Source: Spartobacteria bacterium LR76
Lineage (GTDB): Bacteria > Verrucomicrobiota > Verrucomicrobiia > Chthoniobacterales > Terrimicrobiaceae
Reading direction: 5' to 3'
NCBI GenBank assembly: GCA_003054655.1
Contig: QAYZ01000014.1
Span: 496,001-560,000, forward strand
DNA length: 64,000 bases
Every line of letters begins with the position of its first letter. The stretch's first letter is position 1. The position numbers were made by a program, and so were the translations under genes. This document shows positions 24,614 to 37,884 of the stretch, in pieces. The notes under the pieces are model-generated. The model had not been told where the DNA came from and made no database searches. It saw nothing but the letters and a program-made list of their open reading frames with translations.

Positions 24614-25786
24614 TTACTTTTTCCGAAACATTGCCCGGTACTCGCCCGGGGTGCGGTTGGTAAACTGCCGGAAAAGGACATGTAACCGGGGTGTGTCGGG
24701 GAAGTCGCAGGATTCGGCGATCGCGGCGAGCTTGAGATCGGTCGTGCGAAGCAGGGACTGCACCCGCGCGATGCGTGCGCGCTGAATTTCGTGCAGTACG
24801 GACTTGCCGAGCACCGAGGAAAACCTTCGCTGCAGCCCGCTGCGTGATATGCCCGAAGCGCGGACGACATCCTCGACGTAGATGTTCTCGGCTGCATGCT
24901 GGCGGATATAGGCGACAGCGCGCTTCACGGCCTCATCTTTTGCAAAGAGTACGTCGGTCGATCGGCGTGCAGCCACCTCAGTAACGGCGAGATGAAGCGA
25001 GCCATCCGGCTTCTGCCCCGTTCGCATCATCATTTCCAGAAGTTTCGTTGCCTCAACCCCGATTTGCCACGAAGGAAGCTTCACGCTGGAAAGAGGGATG
25101 CGCTCGAAATCCACCCAGAACTCATCGTCTCCAGCGCCGAGGATGGCGAGATCCTCGGGGACAGGGCGGCTTTCTTCCCGGGCGGCTTGCAGCAAATGCA
25201 AGGCAAAGGGATCGAGGACGGCGAAGATCCCGGTCTGAGGGGGAAGCTTGCGGAGCCACCTGCGCATACGTGCGATGAGTTCAGGCCCCTGCTCTTTCGC
25301 AATCGGTCCGCATCCTGAGGTATGACATGGCGCGCTGGGCGACAGGAGCGCGAGGGCCTCTCGAAAGCCGTGCAGACGTTCGTTGGAGAAACGGGCGTTC
25401 TTTTGTTCCCAACAGGCGAATGTGGTGCAGCCGCACGCTGCCAGATGCTCGGCTGCCAGACGGCCCACCTGTTCATCATCCTGCGTGACCAGAGGGAGGC
25501 GGGTGGACGAAAGGACGTTGGAAACATTGACGACAGGGATCGGGAGTTGCAGCAGCTCCTCTTCAAACTCCCGATGATGGATCACGGCGATGATGCCGTC
25601 GATATGCTGTCGGCGCACCACTTCCTGCACGGAATCTCCGGGCTTGAGCAGCCCGTTGCCCACTTCGATCGCTCCGGTCGTGAACGCATAGTGACGCGCT
25701 CCGAGCATCATATTGCGACCGTACTCCCAGTCGGGCCGGCAAATCATGAGCATCTGGAAGGCGGACCGTCTCTCTGAGTGCTTCAT
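24614..25786 (-). CDS. XylR-type regulator: LacI-like sugar-binding domain fused to AraC helix-turn-helix
   Basis: 390 residues. The periplasmic-binding-protein-like sensor covers about residues 10-275, with HIDGIIAVIHHREFEEEL, PIPVVNVSN, VTQDDEQVGRLAAEHLAACG and ILGAGDDEFWVDFERIPLSSV. The C-terminal AraC domain (about 290-388) has DVVRASGISRSGLQRRFSS and ESCDFPDTPRLHVLFRQFT. Proteins of this build bind the substrate sugar and activate a neighbouring catabolic operon. It is divergent from the lyase/sialidase operon starting at 25901, with a tandem operator in the gap, so it very probably controls that operon. The start at 25786 is preferred; a later Met (MLMICRPDWEYG) is an alternative. Confidence 0.92.
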   Translation of the reverse strand: MKHSERRSAFQMLMICRPDWEYGRNMMLGARHYAFTTGAIEVGNGLLKPGDSVQEVVRRQHIDGIIAVIHHREFEEELLQLPIPVVNVSNVLSSTRLPLVTQDDEQVGRLAAEHLAACGCTTFACWEQKNARFSNERLHGFREALALLSPSAPCHTSGCGPIAKEQGPELIARMRRWLRKLPPQTGIFAVLDPFALHLLQAAREESRPVPEDLAILGAGDDEFWVDFERIPLSSVKLPSWQIGVEATKLLEMMMRTGQKPDGSLHLAVTEVAARRSTDVLFAKDEAVKRAVAYIRQHAAENIYVEDVVRASGISRSGLQRRFSSVLGKSVLHEIQRARIARVQSLLRTTDLKLAAIAESCDFPDTPRLHVLFRQFTNRTPGEYRAMFRKK

Positions 25787-25810
25787 TTTGGGCAAAAACG
25801 AAATAATAAA

Positions 25811-25842
25811 TACCGTATCCGGTAAAGATTTATCCGGCAAAG
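25811..25842. promoter_or_regulatory. Candidate operator of the lyase-pseudopilin-sialidase operon
   Basis: Two direct copies of TATCCGG(T/C)AAAG lie at 25816-25827 and 25831-25842, 15 bases apart. The first copy overlaps an inverted repeat TACCG-tatc-CGGTA (25811-25824). Direct repeats are the usual binding pattern of AraC-type domains. The interval separates the XylR-type regulator (start 25786) from the operon (start 25868 or 25901). Confidence 0.55.
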
Positions 25843-25900
25843 CGAATAACCTAAATGGAAATCCTGAATGATGTTCGCTCCCCTTGTCCAAGTCTCCCCC

Positions 25901-26905
25901 ATGTCGTCCTCGCATTTGGAGGCCGGGTCCTGGCCGGTCATGCTCACGCCTTTTGCGGAAGACGGAAGCATCGACTGGCCGGCTCTTGACGCCTTGATCG
26001 ACTGGTATGTGGCAGGTGGAAGCCAGGGGCTTTTTGCCGCCTGCCTTTCGAGCGAGATATTTCATCTTTCCGAGGACGAGCGCCTCTCTATCGCACGCCA
26101 CACGGTCGAGCGGGTGGGGGGGCGGGTGCCCGTGATCGCGGCGGGGGCTCTGCCGTCGGGCATTTCCTTGCGCTCCGCCGTGAGCGCTCCCGAGGCTCTG
26201 GCGGAATCTATCGCCAAGGTAGCGGCGACGGGCGTGCGGTCCGTGATCTTGCTGACGAATCAATTTGCCTACGCCCATGAAGGCGCGGATGTCTGGCAGG
26301 CTTGTGTCGAAGATCTTCTGGAGAGGATCGATCCGCAGATTTCACTTGGCCTGTATGAATGCCCCGTCCCTTACAAGAGAGTGTTGACCTCATCCATGAC
26401 GGAGTGGGCGGCCCGGACCGGGCGCTTTCACTTTCTCAAAGACACCTGCTGCGACCTGGCTCTCATCCAAGCCAAGCTGGCTGCGGTGAGCGGGACTCCC
26501 CTGAGATTTTACAACGCCCATACGGCTACTCTGCTCGCAAGTCTTCAGGCGGGCGGGCATGGCTTTAGCGGTGTCGGTGCAAACGCCATCCCGCATCTTT
26601 ATGCCTGGCTGTGCCGGCATTTCGATGAGGAGCCGGAAGTCGCCCGTGAACTACAGGCATTTCTGGTGGAAAGCAGCCCGGCGGTCGATGTCGGCTACCC
26701 ATTTTCCGTGAAGACATATCTCGGGATTCATGGCGTGCCGATGACGTCTTTGGCCCGTTTGGGAGCGTCGACCATCACTGCGGCGGAGATTAACGCTCTT
26801 GCTCTCTTTCATCGAAAAGTTGAGGTTTGGGAGCAGCGGCTTTGCTTGAGTTCTCCTTTTGCCCATGCCGCCATCCCTGCTTCCTCCCCCAGGAGCATCC
26901 CATGA
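25901..26905 (+). CDS. DHDPS/N-acetylneuraminate lyase-family aldolase
   Basis: 334 residues from the ATG at 25901; ATGs at 25868 and 25871 would add 10-11 residues. It is a class I aldolase barrel: Lys180 (FHFLKDTCC) is the Schiff-base lysine and Tyr152 (LYECP) the general base. The pyruvate-carboxylate loop usually written G-T-T/S-G-E appears as CLSSE (49-53), an unusual version. The family cleaves or forms 2-keto-3-deoxy acids, releasing pyruvate and an aldehyde. First gene of a five-gene operon; ATGA overlap with the pseudopilin. A sialic acid or other keto-sugar-acid is a fair guess given the sialidase-fold neighbour, but the exact substrate is open. Confidence 0.85.
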   Translation: MSSSHLEAGSWPVMLTPFAEDGSIDWPALDALIDWYVAGGSQGLFAACLSSEIFHLSEDERLSIARHTVERVGGRVPVIAAGALPSGISLRSAVSAPEALAESIAKVAATGVRSVILLTNQFAYAHEGADVWQACVEDLLERIDPQISLGLYECPVPYKRVLTSSMTEWAARTGRFHFLKDTCCDLALIQAKLAAVSGTPLRFYNAHTATLLASLQAGGHGFSGVGANAIPHLYAWLCRHFDEEPEVARELQAFLVESSPAVDVGYPFSVKTYLGIHGVPMTSLARLGASTITAAEINALALFHRKVEVWEQRLCLSSPFAHAAIPASSPRSIP

Positions 26906-27648
26906 ATGGTCCCTCCGTTTTCTTGCACAGGAGTATCCGCCGACCGGCCGGATTGCCGGGCTTCACCCTCGTGGAGTTGCTGGCGGCCATCGCCATCCTC
27001 GGCATTTTGGCCGGCCTTTTACTGCCCGTGATGTCTCGCGCACGCTCGGCTGCCAATGATGCGAAGTGCATCGGAAACCTGCAACAGATCGGCGCGGGCA
27101 TCGCGATCTACACCGCGGAGAACAATGGAAAGCTTCCCGCCCGGGCAACCACGCAGGACCCGGTCTCCTGGCAGACCCGCGTGCAGCCGTATATGAATCT
27201 CTCGGGAGACGGCGCTTTGCGAAAGGGCATCGCCTGCCCGGCGGCGTCGCCCCGCCCCGTGCTGGCGGATCGCACCGACAAGCGCAGCACGTACGGGATT
27301 TCCGTTTATCTCGTGGGGTCGTCTATTGACTGCAACCTTTCACGCGTGACTGGCTCGCCGGTCCTGATGGTGGTCGACATGCCGACCGCAAACGTCGACG
27401 ACCGCGGGCCGTGGAACGATGGGCGCACCACTGCGGCTCAGCGAAAGGCGATGTTCCGGCATATGGGAGGCACCCGCCAGCACGGAGTCTTCACCGATGG
27501 TCATGTGGAGTCCATGAAACCCTCGGAGTCTGGAATCTTCGGGGAGGACGGCGCCCGCAGCGCCTGGCTCCCCGCTGGCATTTCCTATCGGTTCCCCGGG
27601 TATTGGATTTCCCCGAGCCCGCCGACTCCCACTGACAACATCGAATAA
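26902..27648 (+). CDS. Prepilin-type pseudopilin with H-X-DG-like motif
   Basis: 248 residues. A 20-residue leader ends Gly20, followed by FTLVELLAAIAILGILAGLL, the class III prepilin cleavage site and helix with Glu at mature position 5 (Glu25). The prepilin peptidase at 2031-3137 could process it. The globular part carries RHMGGTRQHGVFTDGH at 186-201, matching the prepilin-associated H-X9-DG domain but with 11 residues between His187 and Asp199. Cys56, Cys112 and Cys144 may form disulfides. Unlike pilus subunits it sits inside a sugar operon: its ATG overlaps the lyase stop, and its TAA overlaps the next ATG (TAATG). Confidence 0.88.
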   Translation: MNGPSVFLHRSIRRPAGLPGFTLVELLAAIAILGILAGLLLPVMSRARSAANDAKCIGNLQQIGAGIAIYTAENNGKLPARATTQDPVSWQTRVQPYMNLSGDGALRKGIACPAASPRPVLADRTDKRSTYGISVYLVGSSIDCNLSRVTGSPVLMVVDMPTANVDDRGPWNDGRTTAAQRKAMFRHMGGTRQHGVFTDGHVESMKPSESGIFGEDGARSAWLPAGISYRFPGYWISPSPPTPTDNIE

Positions 27649-29030
27649 TGATGCTCCCTGGAAATATTATAATACCTGATTCATCCGGTCGCTTTTTGAC
27701 GGGATGCGCGTTGGCCCTGCTCCTTTGCGGCTGCTCTCGACCGTCGGCCCCCGATGTCCGGTCGTCCGGGCATGCTGTGGAACCCGCGACGGAACGCGCC
27801 GGTTTTTTGCTTTCCGGGGAAGTCAACTCCCAGGGCACCCCCGTGGTGGCGATGTGGGGGAGTGGAAAAGCTAGGGCCGGAGAGGATGGAGCGGGATATC
27901 CTATCCTGAAAAGCGCGCGGCATGCGCTCATCTTTCAGGATGCGGTGGAAGCCGGGGCCTACAATCATCACGCCCAGCTTGCCTATCAGGGAGGAGTGTT
28001 TTTCGCCGCGTGGAGCAATCATCCGAAAGGAGAGGATGCCGCCGGTCAAAGGGTGTTATTTTCGACTTCTCCGGATGGAGCCGGGTGGCGGAAATGGGCG
28101 GAAGCCTTTCCTCCTCCGAGCGAGGTGAGGGGGTGGGAGGACGGCTTCGGGTACTATTCGGTCGCCGCTCCGTGGCACGTCCATGACGGGAAGGTTTATC
28201 TCACTGCGCGCATCTACAACTTCGTCGGATGGGAAAACTCCGACCGGACCAGCCGCGCTCCCGCGCGCGACAGCGAGCATATCTTTCAGCGCTATGAGTA
28301 CCTTGGCATCCTGGCGCGCGAAGTGACGCCGCAGGGGGAATTGGGTCCTGTATTTTCTCTCTCGACCCGGATGAATCGGGCGAAGGATCTCGCTTACACG
28401 TTTATCCCCTACGGCGACCCCGCCTATCAGCCGATAGCCGACTCGATCAACCGCATCCCGGAGACAACTCCCCGGCTCAAGGGGCCTCTGCCCCTCCCGG
28501 TCGACACCGCTCGTCTGGTCGAGCCCACGGTCTATGAAGCTGCCGACAAGTCTTGGGTGGCCGTGATCCGGGACGATAAATTTTCCCATCGCAAGTATGT
28601 GAGCTTTTCCCGGGACCATGGGACCACCTGGTCAAAGGCCATGCCAACCGACATCCCGGACTCACCCTCTCTCGATGTCAATGTTTCCGCGCCCGACGGG
28701 TCCATCCTGCTCATCGGCAATCACTGTGCTGCGGCGTTCGACAATCCGCAAAGTCCCACTCACTACGATCGCGACACTCTCGATGTCGCGGTGAGTTTCG
28801 ATGGATACTATTTCCCGCGAGCTTACGCCTTGCGGACGGGGGTGCAGGCTTGGCGGGTGCCGCGGCAAGCGGTGCGTGGCAGGGGTGGCGGTCCGCAATA
28901 TCCCTCGGCGCTTGTCGCCGGGGATCGTCTCTACGTGATGTATTCCTTTGGCAAGGAGGACATTTGGTGCTCGAGCGTGCCGTTGTCTGATCTGCGTTTC
29001 CCACCCTCCAACAATCCGAAACCCAACTAG
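27648..29030 (+). CDS. Sialidase-superfamily (BNR/Asp-box) lipoprotein
   Basis: 460 residues. The N-terminal signal ends with LLLCGC, Cys29 being the likely lipidation site. The body looks like a six-bladed beta-propeller: a clear Asp-box S-R-D-H-G-T-T-W at 321-328, a weaker one in STSPDGAGW, and repeated strand-turn units. Members include exo-sialidases and other glycoside-binding or hydrolysing propellers. I cannot identify the sialidase Arg triad with confidence, so activity is uncertain. Coupled to the pseudopilin by TAATG and followed after 8 bases by the PEP-CTERM gene. As a surface lipoprotein it could release or bind the glycan whose product the lyase handles. Confidence 0.72.
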   Translation: MMLPGNIIIPDSSGRFLTGCALALLLCGCSRPSAPDVRSSGHAVEPATERAGFLLSGEVNSQGTPVVAMWGSGKARAGEDGAGYPILKSARHALIFQDAVEAGAYNHHAQLAYQGGVFFAAWSNHPKGEDAAGQRVLFSTSPDGAGWRKWAEAFPPPSEVRGWEDGFGYYSVAAPWHVHDGKVYLTARIYNFVGWENSDRTSRAPARDSEHIFQRYEYLGILAREVTPQGELGPVFSLSTRMNRAKDLAYTFIPYGDPAYQPIADSINRIPETTPRLKGPLPLPVDTARLVEPTVYEAADKSWVAVIRDDKFSHRKYVSFSRDHGTTWSKAMPTDIPDSPSLDVNVSAPDGSILLIGNHCAAAFDNPQSPTHYDRDTLDVAVSFDGYYFPRAYALRTGVQAWRVPRQAVRGRGGGPQYPSALVAGDRLYVMYSFGKEDIWCSSVPLSDLRFPPSNNPKPN

Positions 29031-29038
29031 AACTCATA

Positions 29039-30874
29039 ATGAAAACCTCCCGAATAACTCTCTTCCTCCTCGCCGTGGCGACAGGCGCCGCATCGGCACA
29101 AATCACCTGGACGGGCAATGGGAATCCGAACAACAGCGGTGCCTGGTCCGATTCCGCGAACTGGGGTGGCAGTGTACCCGATATTGGAGACACTGCTGGC
29201 CTGGGAAATGTCACCTCCGGCACCCGCACGGTCACTTACGATGCGGCAGCCTCGGGTAAACTGGGTGGTATTGATATCACCCAGAGCACGGCCGGTGCGG
29301 TGAACGCCTTTTCCATCAAGCGAAACCTGACGCTCACTAATGGCTTTGCCATCGGTGCGACAGCGGGAACTTCGGAGGTGCGGTTCGGAGGTGCAGCGGA
29401 AAAGATCACCCTCCAGGTCGGAGCAAATGCTTCCAGCCCCGGCATCACCGTGGAATCCGGGGGACGGCTGGTGTTTGACTTCATTCAGGGAAGCAGCAGC
29501 GGAAACGACCTTGCCTCCAACGTGATAGTCAATACAGGTGGCGTATTCCAGGTCGGGTCCTCGGCGACGGGGACCTCGGCATCGACAGCGCAGAATACGC
29601 TCACCCGGGGACTCTCTCTGGCGGGCGGCTCGGTGCTGCTCGATACCACAAGCTATTCCGCCGTGCGGCTGGCGATTCAAGGGGCGTTCAGCTCCACGGG
29701 CGGCTCGATCTCCACGACCAGCGGTAGCGGAGGTTCCATCTTCTTTGACGGCCCCAGTGTCTCCCTGGCAAATACGACTATCGGTTCCGTTAACTTCTCG
29801 GTCCGCGGCTCTGGCACCAAGACATTTCAGAGCGACACCGCGCTGAATCGTCTCTATCTCATCGGTCGTAACAATGCTGATCTTGAGGTCTCCGTCACCG
29901 CTCCCACCGCGACAGGTCTCTACCTTACGCAGGAGTCCGCCGGGCGGGCCGTCGCCCTCAAGCTGACGGGCAATCTCGCTTTGGCCAGCAATGGCGTGCA
30001 GCTCAGCGCCACAGGTGGTGCGACCAGCGGTGTCACGACATATCAGGTCAACACGAATGGTCATGTCCTCGATTTGAGCCTGGGACAGAACTACGGCAAA
30101 TGGACTCCGAACAAAGGCTCGGAGACGACGGCCCTGTGGGATTTGCGCGGATCGAACGGCACGGGAGGAATCAAGGCCCGTGCCTTTGACCTGAGTGCCG
30201 CCAATGTGCAGACCGTGCTGGGAGCGGGGCTGGTCCTCGAGGCGATCAGCGGATCGAATGTTAACTCCCGGGCGAGCAATCTTTCGGGCGTGGGAGAGAT
30301 CGATGCCGCCTCGGTGTTTCGTTTCAACCCTGCGGATACCAGCTACGCGGGCACGCTGCGGTCTAATCGCAATATCGGCATCCTGGAGGTGAAGGCGGGC
30401 ACGCTCACCATCGACGGAGATGTCGACTTCAACGCTGCGGGGGGCATTGTGGTAGCCGCCGGTGCAGAACTGAACCTCGGAGCCCGCGCGGTGGGGACCT
30501 CGAAGTATACCTTCGGAGTGAACGGAGCGAACATCGGAAAGCTGAATGGCGGCACGACACCTGTCTCGCTGGCTGGTTCGACGTTGATTTTTAACTTCGA
30601 GTCCTCGGCCCAGGCTGGGACCTATGAAGCCTTCGCCAATCCCGGAGGTATCACGGGAGGGCTGGGAGCGGTTCAGATCGCCGGGCTGTACTCGCTGAAC
30701 CTGGCCAACTCGGGCAACGAATGGAACGGCTCCACGGGAGGATATAACTTCTCGTTCTCTTCGGAGACGGGATACTTCACGGTCTCCGCTGTGCCGGAAC
30801 CCTCCACCACCGCGCTGGGAGTGAGCGGAGCGGCGCTGGTCGCGACGCTCTTGGGTCGTCGCCGCCAGCCCTGA
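29039..30874 (+). CDS. PEP-CTERM surface protein with autotransporter-like beta repeats
   Basis: 611 residues. The signal peptide MKTSRITLFLLAVATGAASA is followed by ITWTGNGNPN..GAWSDSANWGG, a common start of verrucomicrobial autotransporter-like beta-helix proteins. The long middle is Gly/Ser/Thr-rich with few charges. The C-terminus has V-P-E-P-S-T at 585-590, a hydrophobic segment (LGVSGAALVATLLG) and R-R-R: a PEP-CTERM sorting tail that an exosortase would process to anchor the protein on the cell surface or link it to exopolysaccharide. No exosortase is in the window. It is fourth in the lyase operon, between the sialidase-fold lipoprotein and the transporter. Confidence 0.9.
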   Translation: MKTSRITLFLLAVATGAASAQITWTGNGNPNNSGAWSDSANWGGSVPDIGDTAGLGNVTSGTRTVTYDAAASGKLGGIDITQSTAGAVNAFSIKRNLTLTNGFAIGATAGTSEVRFGGAAEKITLQVGANASSPGITVESGGRLVFDFIQGSSSGNDLASNVIVNTGGVFQVGSSATGTSASTAQNTLTRGLSLAGGSVLLDTTSYSAVRLAIQGAFSSTGGSISTTSGSGGSIFFDGPSVSLANTTIGSVNFSVRGSGTKTFQSDTALNRLYLIGRNNADLEVSVTAPTATGLYLTQESAGRAVALKLTGNLALASNGVQLSATGGATSGVTTYQVNTNGHVLDLSLGQNYGKWTPNKGSETTALWDLRGSNGTGGIKARAFDLSAANVQTVLGAGLVLEAISGSNVNSRASNLSGVGEIDAASVFRFNPADTSYAGTLRSNRNIGILEVKAGTLTIDGDVDFNAAGGIVVAAGAELNLGARAVGTSKYTFGVNGANIGKLNGGTTPVSLAGSTLIFNFESSAQAGTYEAFANPGGITGGLGAVQIAGLYSLNLANSGNEWNGSTGGYNFSFSSETGYFTVSAVPEPSTTALGVSGAALVATLLGRRRQP

Positions 30875-30923
30875 GATATTGCCGGAGCGGGATTTTCCAA
30901 TCCCGCTCTCCTCTGTCGATCCG

Positions 30924-32432
30924 ATGCCTGAGAAAATCGCTCCCGGCGACCGCATACCGCCGTTCCAGAAGATTGCCTTCGCCGCAGGCATGAACACCGA
31001 GTATGTGGCGACGGGACTCATGACGGGCGTGCTCTGGATGCCCTTTTTCAACATCGGACTCGGGCTGAATCCTGTCGTGCTGGGAGGCATCCTCATGGCC
31101 TATCGGGCCTGGGATGCCATCATCGATCCCGTGATGGGCAACCTGTCCGACAACACCCGCACGCCCTGGGGGCGACGACGACCGTATCTGCTTGCAGGGG
31201 CGATTATTTCAGCCCTCCTGTATCCTCTGTTCTGGAATATTCCGGGAGGCCTGGGGGATACGGGTAGGACGCTTTACCTCTTGTTGGTCGGGATGCTCTT
31301 TTTCGCCAGCTTTACGATGTGGTCGATTCCGTACTATGCGATGCAGCTCGAGCTCACGCCGAGCTATGATGAGCGCACCCGCCTCACCGGATGGATGACG
31401 TTTTTTAGCAAACTCTCCTATCTGGCAGGTGGGTGGCTGCTGGCATTTGTGATTCTCGTCGGCACGCTGGCGTCGGGCGACCCTGCGGCCCTGGAGGGAA
31501 GGTCCGCCGGAGTGCGGGAGATTCTCGGAGCCATCCAGCCATGGCTGGCCGCGCTGGCGGGGAATACCCCGGGGGAGCGTCCCATCGTAGCTGGCATGCG
31601 TATTGTCTGCTGGCTGATTGCAGCCAGCATCCTTTGCTTCGGCCTGTTGCCTGCGCTCTTTGTCAAGGAGCGGTACTATGAGTCAGAGGCTCGGCAGCAG
31701 GTTCGCGATCCCTTTTGGCAGAGCATCAAGGAGTCTGCCCGGTGCGGCCCCCTCTGGTCGCTCAATGTGCTCGTGTTTTTCCTCCTCCTCGGCACGATGT
31801 CGGTGGCCAGCCTGGGGCAGTACGTAAACTTTTACTACGCGTGCCAGGGCGATCTGGTGCTCGGCGCGGTGATCGCCGGCTGGAAGGGAACGGTGGTCGT
31901 GCTGGTCGGCGTCTCGACCATTCCGCTTTTTATCTGGCTCGGCGAGCGTTGGGACAAACGCCGCGTAGTGATTTTCATGCTGGCATGCAGCATTTTCGGC
32001 CATCTGCTGAATATCTTTCTAATGACGCCGTCTCGTCCCTGGCTGCAGATTGTTTCTGGCGTCTTTGAATCGTGTTCGCTCTCGGCGGTCTGGCTCTTCC
32101 TGCCATCCATGAAGGCAGATGTGGCTGACTGGGACGAGCGCCAGACCCGCCGCCGCAGGGAAGGTGCCATCAATGCCTTTCACTACTGGTTCGTCAAGGC
32201 GGCGCTCACTTTGTCGATGGGCATCGGCGGCGTGGCCCTCCAGGTCTCCGGTTTCAACGCGGCTCTCCCCGTGCAGTCGTCGGAAACTCTGGGCCGGATG
32301 TTTGCGATTTATCTAGGCCTTCCGCTGGTGCTCTGGACCGTGGCGTTGGGTGCGGCCTGGTTTTATCCGCTTACGCGGGAGCGATTCGCGGTCGTGCGCC
32401 GGGAGCTGGAGGCCCGGCGCGGCCAGATATAG
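30924..32432 (+). CDS. GPH-family sugar:cation symporter
   Basis: 502 residues with about 12 membrane helices. The glycoside-pentoside-hexuronide signature is present: DPVMGNLSDNTRTPWGRRRPYL at residues about 70-91 (D-P-x-x-G-x-x-S-D then W-G-R-R-R-P). MWSIPYYAMQLELTPSYDERT is also typical of the group. It imports a mono- or oligosaccharide with Na+ or H+. The start at 30924 (MPEKIAPGDR) is preferred over a frame extension from 30879. It is the last gene of the operon and ends 17 bases before the convergent Gfo/Idh gene. The cargo is presumably the sugar sensed by the XylR-type regulator at 24614. Confidence 0.9.
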   Translation: MPEKIAPGDRIPPFQKIAFAAGMNTEYVATGLMTGVLWMPFFNIGLGLNPVVLGGILMAYRAWDAIIDPVMGNLSDNTRTPWGRRRPYLLAGAIISALLYPLFWNIPGGLGDTGRTLYLLLVGMLFFASFTMWSIPYYAMQLELTPSYDERTRLTGWMTFFSKLSYLAGGWLLAFVILVGTLASGDPAALEGRSAGVREILGAIQPWLAALAGNTPGERPIVAGMRIVCWLIAASILCFGLLPALFVKERYYESEARQQVRDPFWQSIKESARCGPLWSLNVLVFFLLLGTMSVASLGQYVNFYYACQGDLVLGAVIAGWKGTVVVLVGVSTIPLFIWLGERWDKRRVVIFMLACSIFGHLLNIFLMTPSRPWLQIVSGVFESCSLSAVWLFLPSMKADVADWDERQTRRRREGAINAFHYWFVKAALTLSMGIGGVALQVSGFNAALPVQSSETLGRMFAIYLGLPLVLWTVALGAAWFYPLTRERFAVVRRELEARRGQI

Positions 32433-32449: not shown

Positions 32450-33505
32450 CTAAAACATCATGGGAACCTGCTTCTCGTCGGAGACGTAGCAGGCGTCGAG
32501 TACCTTCTGCATTTCCGCCCCTCGGGCAAAATCCGGCTGATCCTGCTTGCCGGTCTGGATCGCCTTGATGAAGCGCTGGTAGTTGTTCGGCACAGCCGGG
32601 GCCTCGACATCACGCCACTGGGCCTTGTCGAGATCGGGGCCCGAGCAGATGCGATAGCCAGCCGTGGTCTTGTCGGAGTCGATCTCCACCGTGCCCTTCG
32701 TGCCGGCGATCTTGAGGAACAGCCGGTTGGCGTGGCCGCCGCACCAGCGGGTGGTGTGGATCGTGCCGAGTGCGCCGTTGGCAAACTCGACGTTGAGGAC
32801 GGCGGAGTCGTTGGCGTCGAGGACGTATTCCCCGATGCGGTTGCCTTTGGCCTTCGGAAAGGCCTTGAGCCGACAGTAGACGGATTTCAGCGGACCGACC
32901 GGGTACGTGGCGAAGTCGACGATATGCACGCCCACATCACCGAGCACGCCCTTGCTGCCATGCTTCGACGAGAGCCGCCAGAGCCACGCGGGAGTGGTGC
33001 GCCAGTCGCCCCAGACCTTGCTGGCGAGCCAGGCCTGGAGGTAGCTGGCCTCGATGTGGCGTACGTCGCCGATCTCGCCGGAGCGGATCACTTTCTCGAC
33101 GGCCTGGATGGCGGGCCAGTCGCGATAGGACAGGTTCACCATGTTGATGACTTCCGCCTTTTTCGCGGCGGCGACCATCTTGCGGGCGTCGGGATACGTG
33201 ACGGCGAGCGGCTTTTCGCACAGCACGTGCTTTCCCGCCTTCAGGCAGGCGAGGGAGAGCGAAGCGTGAAATGCGTCCGGTGCCACGATGGTCACCGCGT
33301 CAAAATCCGCATTCTTCAGCAGCTCCTTTACGCCAGCATAAGCGGCGGGGATATTGTGTTTGGCGGCGAAATCCTTTGCCCTCTGCAAATCCACGTCGGC
33401 GGCAGCGACGATCGCGCAACCGGGGATGGCGGCGAATTTCTCGGCGTGGACATTGGCCATGCCTCCCGTGCCAAGGATGGCAAGGCGAACTTTTTTCTTA
33501 CTCAT
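32450..33505 (-). CDS. Gfo/Idh/MocA-family oxidoreductase
   Basis: 351 residues. The N-terminal Rossmann fold has LGTGGMANVHAEKF with the dinucleotide loop, and the family Glu-Lys-Pro is at 97-99 (LCEKPLAV). The C-terminal domain has WRLSSKHGSKGVLGDVGVHIVDF, where the second catalytic region (G-D-x-G-x-H) lies. These enzymes oxidise, reduce or epimerise sugars and inositols with NAD(P). The gene is downstream of thuA (23 bases) on the same strand, a pairing that recurs in Verrucomicrobiota and Planctomycetota sugar clusters, with an AraC regulator divergent to thuA. Substrate unknown. Confidence 0.9.
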   Translation of the reverse strand: MSKKKVRLAILGTGGMANVHAEKFAAIPGCAIVAAADVDLQRAKDFAAKHNIPAAYAGVKELLKNADFDAVTIVAPDAFHASLSLACLKAGKHVLCEKPLAVTYPDARKMVAAAKKAEVINMVNLSYRDWPAIQAVEKVIRSGEIGDVRHIEASYLQAWLASKVWGDWRTTPAWLWRLSSKHGSKGVLGDVGVHIVDFATYPVGPLKSVYCRLKAFPKAKGNRIGEYVLDANDSAVLNVEFANGALGTIHTTRWCGGHANRLFLKIAGTKGTVEIDSDKTTAGYRICSGPDLDKAQWRDVEAPAVPNNYQRFIKAIQTGKQDQPDFARGAEMQKVLDACYVSDEKQVPMMF

Positions 33506-33528
33506 GAGATGGAGAAAGGAGGGTGCTG

Positions 33529-34299
33529 TTATTTGTGGCCGACCTTGGAACGCAGGTGCGCCTCTGGATCATCGGGGAGGGGTTCCAGCGCCGGGGAGTT
33601 GGGGCAGACATCTGGGATGCGCACGGTGGCGCGGGCCCAGTGGACGGAGTTGGCGATCACCTTCTGCACCTCGGCCTGGTGATAGGTCGGGTACGTCTCG
33701 TGACCGGGCCGGAAGTAGAAGATGCGGCCATTCCCGCGATACCACGTCGCGCCGCTGCGGAAGACCTCGCCGCCGGTGAACCAGGAGATGAAGAGGAGTT
33801 CATCCGGAGTGGGAATGCCGAATGGTTCGCCATACATCTCCTCGGCGGGAATCTCAAAGTAATCACCGATCCCCTGCGTGATGGGGTGCGATGGCAGGAT
33901 GTTCCACAGACGCTCCTTGTCGCTGGCCTCGCGCCATTTCAGCGAGCAGGTGGTGCCGAGGAGCGACTTGAAGATCTTGGCATAGTGGCCGGAGTGCAGC
34001 ACCACGAGGCCCATGCCCTCCAGGACGCGCTTCTTCACGCGCTCCACGATGGCGTCCTGCACGTCGCCATGGGCCATGTGCCCCCACCAGATGAGCACAT
34101 CGGTTTTCTCCAGGACGGCTTCGGTGAGGCCGTGCTCCGGCTCGTCGAGCGTGGCGGTGCCGACGGACAGGGCGGGATCTTTCCTAAGGAATCCTGCGAT
34201 GGTTTGGTGCATGCCGTCGGGATAGATCTCGGCGACTTTCGGGTTGCGTTTCTCGTGGCGGTATTCGCCCCAGACGATGACGTTGATGGGAGAGGTCAT
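33529..34299 (-). CDS. ThuA-like domain protein
   Basis: 256 residues with a ThuA (trehalose-utilisation) glutamine-amidotransferase-like fold. The start [46 protein letters not shown] and [17 protein letters not shown] are family landmarks; His/Gly/Ser positions at GLVVLHSGH replace the usual amidotransferase nucleophile region. It has no signal peptide, so it is cytoplasmic. ThuA proteins are repeatedly found beside Gfo/Idh enzymes and are implicated in 3-keto-sugar chemistry, without a defined reaction for this one. It is upstream of the oxidoreductase and divergent from an AraC regulator. Confidence 0.88.
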
Positions 34300-34393
34300 G
34301 GGAAATTTCTGTTCCAGACATCGCAGGTTGCTTCAGGAAAACAACGGAAATGAGTTTCACTTGGCTGCGAAGAATAGTAAAAAACTGACATCC

Positions 34394-35242
34394 ATGATTT
34401 CACTGGCAAAGGATATTGAGCGGGTCGTGGCGTCTCTGCGCGCCGGTCGCCTGAAGGTGCGTGTTCCGCGGTCCAGCGACCTGTTCCGCTGGAAGCCGAG
34501 GTCGTTTTTTCATCCGTATCCCGAGCTGTTTATCCAAACCGGCGGGGCCACGGATTTTGATTGTCCCTCCGAGTCGTTCCGTCTCCGCACATGGGAAGTC
34601 TGCGTGATGCCCACAGGAGTACCCCATGCCGAAAAACCGATCGACCTGAAGACTCCTTTTGGCACGATCGTGTTCATGAGGGCGCGCGACGGGTTCTTTC
34701 TGCATCGGGGGCTGGGCGCGCCCGATGGGACGATTCATGGGGCGCAGGCGGAACACCTTGTCAGCTCCCGGGGGAGGTCGGCGTTTCGTTATCTGGAGGA
34801 AATGTCCGCGTCCGTCGCGGAGAAGCACCGCAGTGGTTTCCGCCATAGCCTCCTGGAGGTTTTCCTGGTGACCATCCTGGGCGAGCTGCATCGGCCTTCC
34901 GGCGGTATCGCCTCGCGCTCTCCCCTCATTGCGGAGGCGGAGAAGCTCGCCCGCACGCTGCTCGGCAATCCCGAGCTTGCCGTGGCGGGTATTGCCTCAA
35001 CCCTTGGCTGTTCTGCGGATTACCTCTCCCGCCGCTTCCACGAGGAGCGCGGGATGACGCTGGGCGCATGGATCACCCGCGAGCGGCTGGAGATGGCGCG
35101 GGACCTTTTGTCCGAGCCGCGGCATTCCGTCGCGGAGATCGGGTGGATGTGCGGATTTTCCTCGCCGTCGTACTTTATCCGGGTCTTTCGGCAGCAGACG
35201 GGCTTCACTCCGCGAGCCTGGCGCGAGGCGGCGAACTCCTGA
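34394..35242 (+). CDS. AraC-family transcriptional regulator
   Basis: 282 residues. The N-terminal sensor (about 15-110) includes FFHPYPELFIQTGGATDFDCPS and CVMPTGVPHAEKP (cupin edge), quoted in short pieces. The C-terminal HTH pair (about 185-280) has IASTLGCSADYLSRRFHEE and MCGFSSPSYFIRVFRQQTG followed by TPRAWR. The upstream open frame to 34244 overlaps thuA; the ATG at 34394 matches the domain start. It is divergent from thuA-Gfo/Idh and most likely regulates that pair. A bidirectional terminator separates it from convergent xylA. Confidence 0.9.
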   Translation: MISLAKDIERVVASLRAGRLKVRVPRSSDLFRWKPRSFFHPYPELFIQTGGATDFDCPSESFRLRTWEVCVMPTGVPHAEKPIDLKTPFGTIVFMRARDGFFLHRGLGAPDGTIHGAQAEHLVSSRGRSAFRYLEEMSASVAEKHRSGFRHSLLEVFLVTILGELHRPSGGIASRSPLIAEAEKLARTLLGNPELAVAGIASTLGCSADYLSRRFHEERGMTLGAWITRERLEMARDLLSEPRHSVAEIGWMCGFSSPSYFIRVFRQQTGFTPRAWREAANS

Positions 35243-35246
35243 AAGG

Positions 35247-35283
35247 AAAACGCCGTGCCAGCGGGCGAACCCGCGGCACGGCG
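35247..35283. terminator. Bidirectional terminator between AraC gene and xylA
   Basis: CGCCGTGCC (35251-35259) and GCGGG (35261-35265) pair with CCCGC (35270-35274) and GGCACGGCG (35275-35283), a 14-bp stem with a one-base bulge and a CGAA tetraloop. On the minus strand it runs into TTTTCCTTT (35250 down), giving a good intrinsic terminator for xylA. The plus strand has only GAGGATTTTA. Confidence 0.85.
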
Positions 35284-35312
35284 GTGAGGATTTTACCTGA
35301 TCGGTAGCGAGC

Positions 35313-36626
35313 CTATCTGGAGAGGTATTGGTTGATGATGCCTTCCAGCACCTCCTGGCGTCCGGAGTGTAGTGTCGGCGCGGGCGACTGGAGCGCCAGG
35401 GCGTGCAGTTCGGCGAAGGAAGCCTCTCCGGCCTCGATCCGGCGGCCGAGCGGGCTGTCCCAACTCGCGTAGCGGGCGGCGACAAACTCCTCGATGCGGC
35501 CATCGGCGCGGATCGCGGAGGCGACCTGGAGGCCGCGGGCAAACGCATCCATGCCTGCGATGTGGCTGTGAAAGAGATCGAGCGGCTCAAAGGACTCGCG
35601 GCGGCGCTTTGCGTCAAAATTCAGCCCTCCCGTAGTGAATCCCCCCATGGCCAGAAGCTCCAGCATCACCTGCGTGGTGAGATAGAGGTCGGTGGGGAAT
35701 TCATCCGTATCCCAACCGCAATTCGGCGTGCCCTGGTTGGCGTCGATGGAACCCAGCGCCCCGGCCTCGCGGGCGATGCGCATCTCGTGCGCCATGGTGT
35801 GGCCGGCAAGCGTGGCGTGGTTGGTTTCAAGGTTCAGCTTGAAATGCTCGAGCAGGCCAAACTCGCGGAGGAAGTTCAGGCACGCAGCGGCGTCGGAATC
35901 GTACTGGTGGGTGGTTGGCTCCTGCGGCTTGGGCTCGATGTAGAACTGTCCGCCAAAGCCGATCTCCTGCTTGAAGGCGACCGCCATGTGCAGCATGGCG
36001 GCCAGGTGCTCGCGCTCGCGCTGGAGACTGGTGTTGACGAGGGTGTTGTAGCCCTCGCGTCCGCCCCAGAAAGTATAACCTTGTCCTCCGAGGAGGTGGG
36101 TGACCTCGATGGCCTTCCTGACCTGGGCGGCGGCGTGAACGAAGACGCCGAGCTCGGGCGAGGTGGCCGCGCCCTGGGCGTAGCGAGGATGCGTGAAGAG
36201 GCAGGCGGTGCCCCAGAGGAGGCTCACGCCGGTCTCGTCCTGGCGCTGCCGAAGGCGGGTCGCGATTTGATCGAAGACCTGCTCGGTTTCCTGAATCGTG
36301 CCGCGCTCCGGCGAAACATCACGATCGTGGAAGCAGTAGAGGTCGATGGAGATCTTTTGCAGGAACTCGAAGAACACATCCACGCGGCGCAGGGCGTTTT
36401 CCACCGAGTCTGATCCGTCATCCCAGGGCGTGATCGCAGTTCCCGCACCGAAGGGATCGGCCAGCGGGTTGCGCATGCAGTGCCAGTAGGCGGCGGCGAA
36501 ACGCAGGTGATCGCGCATCGGCTTGCCCTCGATCCGGGCATCGGGGTTGTAAAACTTGAAGGCGAGGGGATTGCGGGAATCCGGGCCCTCGTAGGCGATT
36601 TTTTGGACGGGGAAGTAGTCGGACAT
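35313..36626 (-). CDS. xylA: Xylose isomerase
   Basis: 437 residues, the usual class II length. It converts D-xylose to D-xylulose (also glucose to fructose) in the cytoplasm with two divalent metals. His100 and Asp103 (CFHDRD) are the ring-opening pair. WGGREGY at 188-194 and Glu231/Lys233 (IEPKPQEP) carry metal and substrate residues, and HQYD follows at 240-243. The ATG at 36626 (MSDYFPVQ) is the family start. No xylulokinase or xylose transporter is in the window; the gene is monocistronic with its own terminator. It is divergent from xylR, with two inverted repeats in the 103-base gap. Confidence 0.96.
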
Positions 36627-36628
36627 AA

Positions 36629-36648
36629 GTTTGGAGGATGCTCCAAAC
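36629..36648. promoter_or_regulatory. Palindrome immediately upstream of the xylA start
   Basis: GTTTGGAG (36629-36636), GATG, CTCCAAAC (36641-36648): a perfect 8-bp inverted repeat that starts two bases before the xylA ATG on the minus strand. In RNA it would form a hairpin that includes the only GGAG in the leader. It could be an operator, or a structure controlling ribosome access. Confidence 0.5.
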
Positions 36649-36674
36649 CTAAGGTGCGCCCCGCCCGCTTGATA

Positions 36675-36693
36675 CCGCAATGTGCGGGTTTTT
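36675..36693 (+). promoter_or_regulatory. Hairpin plus T-run, or operator, in the xylA-xylR interval
   Basis: CCGCA (36675-36679), ATG, TGCGG (36683-36687), then G and TTTTT (36689-36693) on the plus strand. The stem is short for a terminator, and the location 37 bases before xylR also suits an operator half-site or attenuator. Confidence 0.35.
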
Positions 36694-36729
36694 CTTGTTG
36701 ATTTGCGACATCGCTCCTAGGAGGGGAAG

Positions 36730-37884
36730 ATGGAAGGACGCATCGCCCTGGTTGTCTCCGACGTTTTTGTCCGGCGGTTGACCCCGGCGCTCATGGAGTT
36801 CGTTCGGCGGCGGGTCGACTTCCGGGTGGTGGATATTTATCGCCCGCTCTCCGAGCTGGCGGCCTGCGTGGAGGAGTTGAAGCCCATCGGCATTATTACG
36901 GAATACCTGCCGCGCATCACCGGTCACATCCTGGCGCTCGGCCTCCCGACCGTGATTGCGGATGGCGACGTGGTCTTCCCGGGAGCCGTGACCATCGATG
37001 TCGATGATGCCGCGGTCGGGCGCGAGGCGGCGCGGTTTTTCGTGGCGGCGGGCTACCGGCACTTTGCCTGTGTCTACAACCATCTGCCGTATGGCGAGCA
37101 GCGGCTGGCGGGGTTTCGGGAGGCGATTGCCAGCGTTGCGGAATCCTGGGATGGCCTTCGGCAGGTGGAGCGCAAGGCGCGCTACTACATGGAGTCGTGG
37201 AACGAGCCGACCGATTCCCTGCGGAAGTGGCTGCGTGGGCTTCCCAAGCCCGTCGCCATCTTTGCCGTCCATGATCCGCTCGGCCGCTGGGTGGCGGAGG
37301 CGGCGCTGGAGGAGGGGCTGCACGTCCCGGACGAGGTCGCCATCATCGGGGCCAATAATGACGAACTGGTCTGCGGTCTGAACTATCCGCCGTTGTCGAG
37401 CGTGGCCATTCCCTGGCATCGCATCGGCTATCTGGCCGGAGAGTGGGTCCTCGCCCTGGCGCGGGGAAAGAAACCTCCCCGCAAACCCTGCCTCGTCGAC
37501 GCCGGGCCGGTGGTCGTACGGCAATCCACCTCCCAGCAGGCGGTGGACGATGCGGATCTGCGGCGGACGCTGGAATACCTGCGCTCTCATTTCCGGGAAG
37601 ATCTCACCTTTGGGGGCGTCTGCCGGGAGTTGCGGCTCAACCGCCGCTCGCTTGAGCGAAAGTTCGCCGCCTTCCTGCGCGAGACTCCGGCGCAATATCT
37701 CGCCCGCATCCGCCTGGATGCCGCCCGCACGCTCCTCGTCGATACGAACCTCCCGGCCGCCATCATCGCGGACCGCTGCGGGTTTGGCACGCCGGAGCGC
37801 TTTTCCACGCACTTCCGCGAGGCTTTTGGGATCAGCCCCATCCGTTATCGGCGGCGCTTTCTCGGCGGGGAACTGGAGGGGTGA
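36730..37884 (+). CDS. xylR: Xylose operon regulator XylR (sugar-binding domain + AraC HTH)
   Basis: 384 residues. The sensor (about 1-275) resembles LacI/ribose-binding folds: IALVVSDVFVRRL, IGIITEYLPRI, VTIDVDDAAVGREAARFFVAAGYRHFA and IGANNDELVCGLNYPPLSSV, where the last stretch is strongly conserved in XylR. The AraC domain (about 280-380) has VCRELRLNRRSLERKFAAFL and RCGFGTPERFSTHFREAFG. Xylose binding would activate divergent xylA. GAGGGGAAG precedes the ATG. It is the same architecture as the regulator at 24614-25786, which senses another sugar. Confidence 0.93.
   Translation: MEGRIALVVSDVFVRRLTPALMEFVRRRVDFRVVDIYRPLSELAACVEELKPIGIITEYLPRITGHILALGLPTVIADGDVVFPGAVTIDVDDAAVGREAARFFVAAGYRHFACVYNHLPYGEQRLAGFREAIASVAESWDGLRQVERKARYYMESWNEPTDSLRKWLRGLPKPVAIFAVHDPLGRWVAEAALEEGLHVPDEVAIIGANNDELVCGLNYPPLSSVAIPWHRIGYLAGEWVLALARGKKPPRKPCLVDAGPVVVRQSTSQQAVDDADLRRTLEYLRSHFREDLTFGGVCRELRLNRRSLERKFAAFLRETPAQYLARIRLDAARTLLVDTNLPAAIIADRCGFGTPERFSTHFREAFGISPIRYRRRFLGGELEG

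Follow-up and report, generated by a model that had tools for sequence, protein, structure and literature searches.

An operon with a divergent regulator in the verrucomicrobial bacterium LR76, predicted to degrade a sugar acid, with its own pseudopilin and PEP-CTERM protein

Spartobacteria bacterium LR76, a member of the Verrucomicrobiota, carries a compact operon in which five genes on one strand encode a lyase/aldolase of the DHDPS superfamily, a pseudopilin, a sialidase-fold lipoprotein, a PEP-CTERM protein and a GPH-type symporter, with a XylR-type regulator transcribed divergently. The operon lies in the 64-kb stretch of DNA analysed here (the window), i.e., C9:496001-560000 of the LR76 genome (4.75 Mb in 16 contigs). 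With about even confidence, we propose that it is regulated and serves the catabolism of a 2-keto-3-deoxy sugar acid in ketosidic linkage, of the type of 3-deoxy-lyxo-heptulosaric acid (Dha), 3-deoxy-manno-octulosonic acid (Kdo) or sialic acid, and that it brings its own two-part surface module, made of the pseudopilin and the PEP-CTERM protein.

The operon and its predicted products

Inspection of the open reading frames (ORFs) identified all five plus-strand genes and the divergent regulator, whose start was corrected to 25786, and confirmed the junctions given in a first-pass annotation of this DNA: the lyase and pseudopilin genes overlap by ATGA (26902-26905), the pseudopilin and lipoprotein genes meet in TAATG (27646-27650), and an 8-base gap separates the lipoprotein gene from the PEP-CTERM gene (29030 to 29039). 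The ATG of the symporter gene (30924) lies 49 bases past the PEP-CTERM gene, and an alternative TTG start, 4 bases past it, is also open. A second species of the same genus (G087) possesses intact orthologues of the five genes and the regulator in identical order, at 91.5-96.1% identity, with ratios of nonsynonymous to synonymous substitution rates (dN/dS) of 0.053-0.125 across the five genes (lowest for the PEP-CTERM gene, 0.053) and 0.110 for the regulator. Given intact orthologues, the same order and these low ratios, the six frames are not chance ORFs; the operon genes are genuinely coding and under purifying selection. The annotation's further point, that one compact sugar-acid operon sends out three proteins by three sorting routes, is likewise supported. 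Consensus scans found one promoter-like site, on the minus strand (shuffle mean 2.6), and 14 terminator-like sites (shuffle mean 7.6), from which no conclusion was drawn; the ten plus-strand terminator-like sites within the operon all fall inside coding frames, with none at the junctions.

The lipoprotein had been predicted to be an Asp-box protein of the sialidase fold, which the structure model bears out. It contains an Asp box (SRDHGTTW) and, as judged by eye, a lipobox (LCGC in LR76, VSGC in the second species). The top structural match of its model (predicted local distance difference test, pLDDT, 78; predicted template modelling score 0.81) was BT_1020 (5mqr; Z 30.5, root-mean-square deviation 3.1, 336 residues aligned), followed by sialidases and KDNases (acting on ketodeoxynonulosonic acid, KDN) at Z ~25 to 23, the best sialidase scoring 24.9. 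BT_1020 also came first in a single-sequence search (6e-5 vs 0.12 for a sialidase) and in a family-profile search (3.5e-21), the latter with sialidases close behind (6.6e-21). The motifs YNH, GPQYP and KED are common to the lipoprotein family and BT_1020, and PF24067 also matches a relative from the phylum (L139, 32.8 bits). On these models the lipoprotein is a sialidase-fold protein whose nearest relative is the N-terminal propeller of BT_1020, which we take to be a glycoside hydrolase (GH) of family GH143 that releases Dha from rhamnogalacturonan II. BT_1020 is a Bacteroides enzyme with a GH142 arabinofuranosidase part (accessible text of PMC7263609); the LR76 lipoprotein differs from this best structural and sequence match in having a single domain, without the GH142 barrel, and its function is predicted from the fold.

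The lyase matched no named member of its superfamily among the NCBIfam models (dapA 55.6 bits, cut-off 206; nanA 18.1 bits, cut-off 382). The annotation's label, NanA/DapA-type, therefore holds at the level of the superfamily, and a NanA identity is not supported, given the score on the nanA equivalog. K191 and Y163 align with the DapA residues that we take to be the Schiff-base lysine and the catalytic tyrosine, respectively; K191 is invariant in a 19-sequence alignment, and in both this and the DapA alignment the LR76 enzyme has CLSSE where DapA has GTTGE. Judging from sequence and model, the lyase and lipoprotein families both seem at home on 2-keto-3-deoxy sugar acids, with Dha, Kdo, KDN and sialic acid as candidates.

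Among these, sialic acid had been singled out at first, and an operon with a true GH33 sialidase and an N-acetylneuraminate lyase would account for the fold and for the near tie of BT_1020 and many sialidases in the profile search. Moreover, R308, R375 and Y418 are invariant in 31 sequences of the lipoprotein family and E292 and E437 in a set of eight; the spacing of these five residues is roughly that of the sialidase E/R/R/Y/E set. Nevertheless, we consider this reading improbable: BT_1020 ranks above the sialidases in structure and in the single-sequence search, the lyase falls far short of the nanA model and carries CLSSE for GTTGE, a Pfam scan of the operon genes turned up neither a kinase nor an epimerase family for sialic acid, and no equivalent of the first active-site arginine was spotted in the lipoprotein by eye. 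Sialic acid as the substrate is thus not supported.

As for the surface proteins, the pseudopilin assignment stands (PF07963 and TIGR02532 over cut-off), whereas its H-X-DG label is based on an RH-x11-DGHV motif seen by eye, with 11 rather than 9 intervening residues, no H-X9-DG NCBIfam model being reported at E 0.01. Scored over its full length, the PEP-CTERM protein fell 0.1 bits short of the Pfam cut-off for its profile (20.6 bits), and in the genome search it exceeded the cut-off, at 26.5 bits; a Pfam scan found no further domain in its 611 residues. None of the window genes matched the Verru_Chthon models TIGR02596, TIGR02598, TIGR02599 and TIGR02600, and none of the ten operon and neighbour proteins scanned had a Pfam match to a SusC/SusD-type pair.

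Between the regulator and the operon lies a direct repeat, the copies of which read TATCCGGTAAAG and TATCCGGCAAAG (25816-25842). Allowing at most one mismatch, the pattern occurs twice in the window, both times here, while shuffled sequences average 0.28 matches and 2 of 100 reach two, for a pattern picked after inspection of the sequence. It is retained in the second species with one base changed in each copy, and can reasonably be regarded as a candidate XylR operator. Overlapping the first copy, a short inverted repeat, TACCGGATACGGTA, with a T-rich tail lies on the minus strand upstream of the regulator (25811-25824). Beyond the operon, a second sugar locus (32450-37884) comprises minus-strand GFO/IDH dehydrogenase and ThuA genes together with a plus-strand AraC regulator, a xylose isomerase and a second XylR-type regulator.

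Pairing of pseudopilins and PEP-CTERM proteins across the genome

The LR76 genome has 96 prepilin motif matches, 96 PEP-CTERM matches at E 0.01 (79 at E 0.001), 8 T2SSE-type matches and one exosortase (Exosortase_EpsH, 153 bits). Two genus-mates have 102 and 104 pilins, and in the family's remaining 23 genomes the number ranges from 2 to 51. For 17 of the 96 LR76 pilins, the start was preceded on the same strand, within 1 kb, by the end of a PEP-CTERM gene (random mean 1.05; largest of 500 placements, 5). The same pairing held for 9 of the 102 pilins of a sister species, G086 (random mean 1.07, largest 5); the random placement ignores gene boundaries, and for G086 the lengths of contigs C1 and C3 were guessed.

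Operons were then predicted with a simple gene caller in 0.9 Mb of pilin-centred stretches, the window included; the counts omit 5 of the 96 pilin motifs, located outside called genes, and 20 lone regulator genes. The 70 pilin operons comprised up to 21 cassette-type operons (an upper figure, the definition being gene size only, i.e., a 1080-1450-aa gene), 3 more with three or more pilins, and 46 others. Twenty non-cassette operons hold both a pilin and a PEP-CTERM gene, a figure that includes one single fused ORF (on C15). Regulators of the LacI, XylR or AraC type, inside the operon or divergent from it, accompany 11 of these 20, compared with 22 of 243 operons with neither gene (p 1.8e-6), 3 of 29 with a pilin only, none of 20 with PEP-CTERM only and 1 of 21 cassettes. 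Since operons with both genes are larger (mean 4.7 vs 1.6 genes), we repeated the count on operons of at least three genes: regulators were present in 11/18 with both and 3/44 with neither (p 1.5e-5), as well as in 3/17 with a pilin only, and divergent regulators alone in 7/18 vs 1/44 (p 4e-4). Pilins as such lie barely closer to regulators than expected by chance (19 of 96 within 3 kb of any regulator, random mean 10.4, largest 18 of 300; 7 vs a random 5.4 for AraC-type regulators alone; contig C3 length guessed), so that the regulator signal stems from the operons that also hold a PEP-CTERM gene.

To this set of 20 belongs the window operon, with a different gene order. Among the proteins scanned (beyond the window, 40 taken singly: 38 from 16 of the 20 operons and two, at L070, from an operon with a regulator and a pilin and no PEP-CTERM gene), those of 14 of the 20 operons, the window operon included, showed a glycan-type domain. 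These domains were GH71, GH42, GH5, GH4, GH39, fucosidase/GHL6, heparinase II/III, a carbohydrate-binding module and BNR, with some operons showing just beta-helix, LamG or GFO_IDH. In a tally of 110 genes from the 46 pilin operons that are neither cassettes nor triplets, Beta_helix accounted for 9 and Laminin_G_3 for 6; neither was among the 25 leading families listed for 110 control genes, drawn at random from the same stretches and themselves near pilins. Furthermore, PEP-CTERM proteins resemble a protein of their own operon (E <1e-4, at identities of up to 50%) in 7 of 50 possible pairs, compared with 8 of 976 pairs between operons (18 operons, p 2e-6); the window operon has no such twin.

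Two side observations concern LR76 operons. A PEP-CTERM protein and an unanchored homologue share an operon, as anchored and free copies of one domain, at, e.g., C2:69202 with C2:67635 and C11:1469473 with C11:1468736 (49-50% identity in these two). Cassettes of the Verru_Chthon type, at most 21 by gene size, combine a 1080-1450-aa protein with prepilin-like proteins (e.g., L090:1598-7651); in the one cassette checked, each of the four proteins matches one of the Verru_Chthon A-D models, the match to C scoring below the cut-off.

Lastly, in three LR76 ORFs a PEP-CTERM motif is followed in frame, with no intervening stop, by a prepilin motif (Table 1). The fusion on C10 is kept in the sister species as a frame of 970 codons, with 90% identity over 861 residues; its junction codons differ mostly synonymously between the two (in the linker, 7 synonymous changes and 2 not). 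The C13 fusion is recognisable there as a 547-codon frame that lacks the Met just before the pilin motif. Because the C10 PEP-CTERM match spans profile positions 1-20 of 24 and the linker methionines are kept in both species, a second, internal pilin start may exist in this fusion. The PEP-CTERM helix crosses the membrane from outside to inside, which leaves its tail in the cytoplasm, and a prepilin has a cytoplasmic leader and crosses from inside to outside; given these topologies, a fusion of the two would plausibly form a hairpin. The fusions hint most strongly that both signal systems may serve one device, and together with the pairing and the regulator enrichment they support a working link between the two surface parts.

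Table 1. Features of the LR76 operon (window positions) and in-frame PEP-CTERM/pilin fusions (contig positions)
Feature	Position	Strand	Evidence or counterpart
XylR-type regulator (LacI-like sensor domain and AraC helix-turn-helix)	24614..25786	-	Pfam Peripla_BP_3 83.7 bits, HTH_18 61.9 bits
Direct repeat TATCCGG(T/C)AAAG, two copies, starts 15 bases apart	25816..25842	+	between regulator and operon
DHDPS-superfamily lyase/aldolase	25868..26905 (start possibly 25901)	+	PF00701 79.2 bits
Pseudopilin with prepilin N-terminal signal GFTLVELL	26902..27648	+	PF07963 (N_methyl) 25.7 bits, cut-off 21.2; TIGR02532 26.7 bits, cut-off 16.3
Sialidase-fold (propeller, Asp-box) lipoprotein	27648..29030 (start 27648 or 27651)	+	BNR_2 57 bits; Beta-prop_BT_1020 (PF24067) 34.1 bits, cut-off 27
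PEP-CTERM protein, 611 aa, VPEP, hydrophobic stretch and RRR	29039..30874	+	PF07589
GPH-type cation symporter	30924..32432	+	PF13347 (MFS_2) 205 bits; TIGR00792 158.5 bits, under curated cut-off 231
Fusion 1	C10:458528-461113 (L062:5383-8292)		G086 counterpart L230:469-3378
Fusion 2	C13:152451-153977 (L043)		G086 counterpart L231
Fusion 3	C15:15072-16121 (L096:6587-7915)		one genome only

Neighbourhoods of the lyase within and beyond the phylum

Relatives of the BNR lipoprotein occur in 3 of 213 genomes of the order, LR76 included, one of them a partial match with an internal stop; owing to this rarity, the lyase is the better search bait. It is present in 11 of 387 genomes sampled across the phylum, LR76 included, and 20 of the 22 matches outside LR76 were taken with their flanks (5 loci of the same class and 15 of other classes, from 10 genomes, some of one genus; in L099, L133 and L135 the lyase was placed by six-frame search). 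By six-frame search, a pseudopilin adjoins the lyase in 13 of the 20 loci, including 11 of the 15 in other classes; it is directly downstream on the same strand in 9, upstream in 1 and divergent in 3. An SSS symporter is present in 17 loci, a BNR-profile match in 9, and the one-strand order lyase-pilin-BNR-SSS in 6 loci of four genomes. The pilin and BNR profiles behind these counts were built partly from the same loci, most pilins having first been matched by the window pilin alone. Ten other pilin matches in the same ~290 kb are not beside the lyase, so the adjacency looks well above local density, a comparison that carries no formal test, concerns loci of shared ancestry and uses local pilin matches in place of a genome-wide background. 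In the same class, four loci (L122, L123, L136 and L138) hold a PEP-CTERM gene by a loose motif, two of them (L123 and L138) also by a stricter one. The neighbourhood of the LR76 genes, the conservation of which the first-pass annotation had made the check on its proposal, is thus conserved in relatives.

Across phyla, a genome scan with the lyase alignment confirmed at least 586 relatives. The best 80 of these, from Paenibacillus, Lachnospiraceae, Rhodoferax, Latescibacterota, Anaerolineales and others, were examined as loci, in 78 of which the lyase was called. A BNR-family gene is adjacent to the lyase in 17 of the 78 and within two genes in 19; among genes four or more positions away, 7 of 639 belong to this family, the BNR profile used having been built partly from lyase neighbours. 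In one Anaerolineales contig the two genes overlap by 4 bases. As they are adjacent across phyla, the lyase and the sialidase-fold protein form a recurrent pair that also occurs in the absence of pilins (e.g., in Paenibacillus, where one locus also contains a GH106 rhamnosidase-family protein). The pairing of a CLSSE-type lyase with a BNR protein was seen at L155, L190, L205 and other loci, with differing transporters (Tct in L190). This CLSSE-motif subfamily, found from Paenibacillus to Lachnospiraceae, is one partner of this candidate catabolic pair.

A putative surface module, its alternatives and its relatives

We envisage that the operon is controlled by its XylR-type regulator in response to a sugar, and that the lipoprotein, a predicted sialidase-fold exo-hydrolase, cuts the acid off a glycan. 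The GPH symporter, or an SSS symporter in relatives, would import the acid, and the lyase, in which the catalytic Lys and Tyr are conserved, would split it into pyruvate and an aldehyde. At the surface, the pseudopilin, once cut by prepilin peptidase, would be built into a shared machine, for type II secretion or of the type IV pilus, and the one exosortase found would process the PEP-CTERM protein. As gene pairing, fusions and regulator enrichment suggest, the two may constitute a surface part specific to the locus, to which the glycan binds or by which it is presented, and this plan may be reused in about 20 LR76 operons, much like a polysaccharide utilization locus (PUL) in which a pilin/PEP-CTERM pair replaces the dedicated outer-membrane receptor pair. 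The first-pass annotation had proposed a glycan-capture device in which the two surface proteins place the hydrolase. Conservation and the genome-wide pattern support its core, a catabolic operon with its own surface parts; the placement is unproven, and the hydrolase has a lipoprotein signal of its own.

A broader version of this proposal is possible, albeit doubtful: that the exosortase and the type IV pilus or type II secretion system (T2SS) are two halves of an interchangeable surface device, to which every regulated glycan operon contributes a PEP-CTERM protein and a pseudopilin of its own, some with an unanchored domain copy. In the fusions, the PEP-CTERM tail would double as the prepilin leader, giving a hairpin polyprotein that exosortase and prepilin peptidase would cut into a 1:1 pair.

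In its overall plan, the LR76 operon resembles the Bacteroidota PULs of the SusC/SusD type, which bring together in a single locus a regulator, surface enzymes that act on glycans, an importer and catabolic functions; it differs in having a pseudopilin and an exosortase client, with no SusC/SusD-type gene among the proteins scanned. With the Verru_Chthon cassettes it shares a prepilin-type protein in a verrucomicrobial operon (the cassettes have several), but these consist of a protein A of ~1300 aa plus three prepilin-like proteins, and a sugar regulator is rare among them (1/21). Another likeness is the alginate cluster of Verruconatronum alginivorum (accessible text of PMC13274419, to which our statements on this organism are limited). 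There, a pulG-like pseudopilin, with 67 homologues, lies inside a cluster with a symporter (pgaptmp_000046-60) that rises on alginate, in a proteome with one replicate per treatment in which another pseudopilin, outside clusters, also rose. The two share a verrucomicrobial glycan cluster with a pseudopilin inside, a symporter and large pseudopilin paralogy; the V. alginivorum cluster encodes polysaccharide lyases, in contrast to the BNR hydrolase and aldolase of LR76. A pseudopilin inside an induced verrucomicrobial glycan cluster is thus already published. In its C-terminal PEP motif, helix and basic tail, and in its large paralogy, the other surface part conforms to the known PEP-CTERM/exosortase system (65 paralogues in Verrucomicrobium spinosum; Haft 2006, PMC1569441), which the accessible text of that paper ties to exopolysaccharide genes, with no mention there of a link to pseudopilins or catabolic operons. 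For Akkermansia, 23 PEP-CTERM proteins are predicted, nine of which were seen by mass spectrometry (accessible text of PMC4960237). A literature search on the combination of PEP-CTERM, pseudopilin and polysaccharide in Verrucomicrobia found nothing, which is weak evidence of absence given that most subscription journals were uncovered. The earlier statement that no operon of such composition has been characterised therefore holds in part: the BNR protein is rare in the order, yet 20 operons of LR76 itself combine a pilin with PEP-CTERM, and the alginate-cluster pseudopilin had been published.

Two other explanations of the pseudopilin have to be weighed against a glycan-binding module. One, which we judge unlikely but worth keeping in sight, makes it a locus-specific part of a T2SS that exports the operon's lipoprotein and PEP-CTERM protein, in line with a GspG-like N-terminal match (26.4 bits, under cut-off), the 8 T2SSE-type matches in the genome and the suggestion, in the accessible text of PMC13274419, that a T2SS could export alginases; on the other hand, pilins pair with PEP-CTERM genes regardless of the type of neighbouring enzyme. 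The other, to which we assign a distinctly low probability, is that both genes are bystanders, so dense and scattered (96 and 96 motif matches in 4.75 Mb) that the operon merely picked up one of each, with no joint function. Many pilins indeed lie in cassette-type operons or without PEP-CTERM, pilins alone are hardly nearer to regulators than chance would have them, and the BNR lipoprotein occurs in few genomes of the order. This explanation, however, does not sit well with a pairing that exceeds random placement in two genomes, an enrichment of regulators confined to operons with both genes, fusions kept between species, pilins beside the lyase in other classes, and purifying selection on both genes.

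Several observations also weigh against the proposed sugar-acid operon with a two-part surface module. Pseudopilins are so common in LR76 that one co-occurrence means little, and the window operon has the order reversed, with the pilin upstream and the PEP-CTERM motif 3.8 kb downstream. The low confidence of the pseudopilin structure model (pLDDT 54) means that what the pilin binds cannot be read from it. Nine of the 20 operons with both genes lack a LacI/XylR/AraC regulator, and six have no glycan-type domain over cut-off in the proteins scanned: two of these hold surface genes only, one consists of nothing but the C15 fusion, another has a lectin-like match under cut-off, one encodes a DJ-1/PfpI protein, and the last, the operon of the C13 fusion, holds two SBP_bac_11 binding proteins and a permease. 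Among the six phylum loci with the full order, five have weak BNR matches (42-53 bits) and L139 alone a strong one (267 bits). The PEP-CTERM motif was found in 0 of the 15 lyase loci from other classes, where it is hence outside the core, and the accessible main text on the V. alginivorum cluster contains neither 'PEP-CTERM' nor 'exosortase' (PMC13274419). Finally, in Rhodoferax the lyase-BNR pair has as neighbours an FGGY kinase, a fucose-isomerase-C protein and a Tct transporter, and this kinase and isomerase context would fit an aldose product, of the Kdo type, better than Dha.

Taken together, these results suggest a little-described surface system, modular in build, by which complex sugars would be captured. 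With its predicted exo-hydrolase and aldolase, the core of the operon is a candidate route for unusual 2-keto-3-deoxy sugar acids, for instance those found in plant pectin. Gene pairing, enrichment of regulators and natural fusions amount to one testable proposal for how Verrucomicrobiota, which are degraders of complex glycans, may hold polysaccharide at the cell, one that also addresses why this genus has ~100 pseudopilins and ~80-100 PEP-CTERM proteins per genome. If the broader version of the proposal is true, the device would be an analogue of the SusC/SusD receptor pair, built from pilus and sortase parts.

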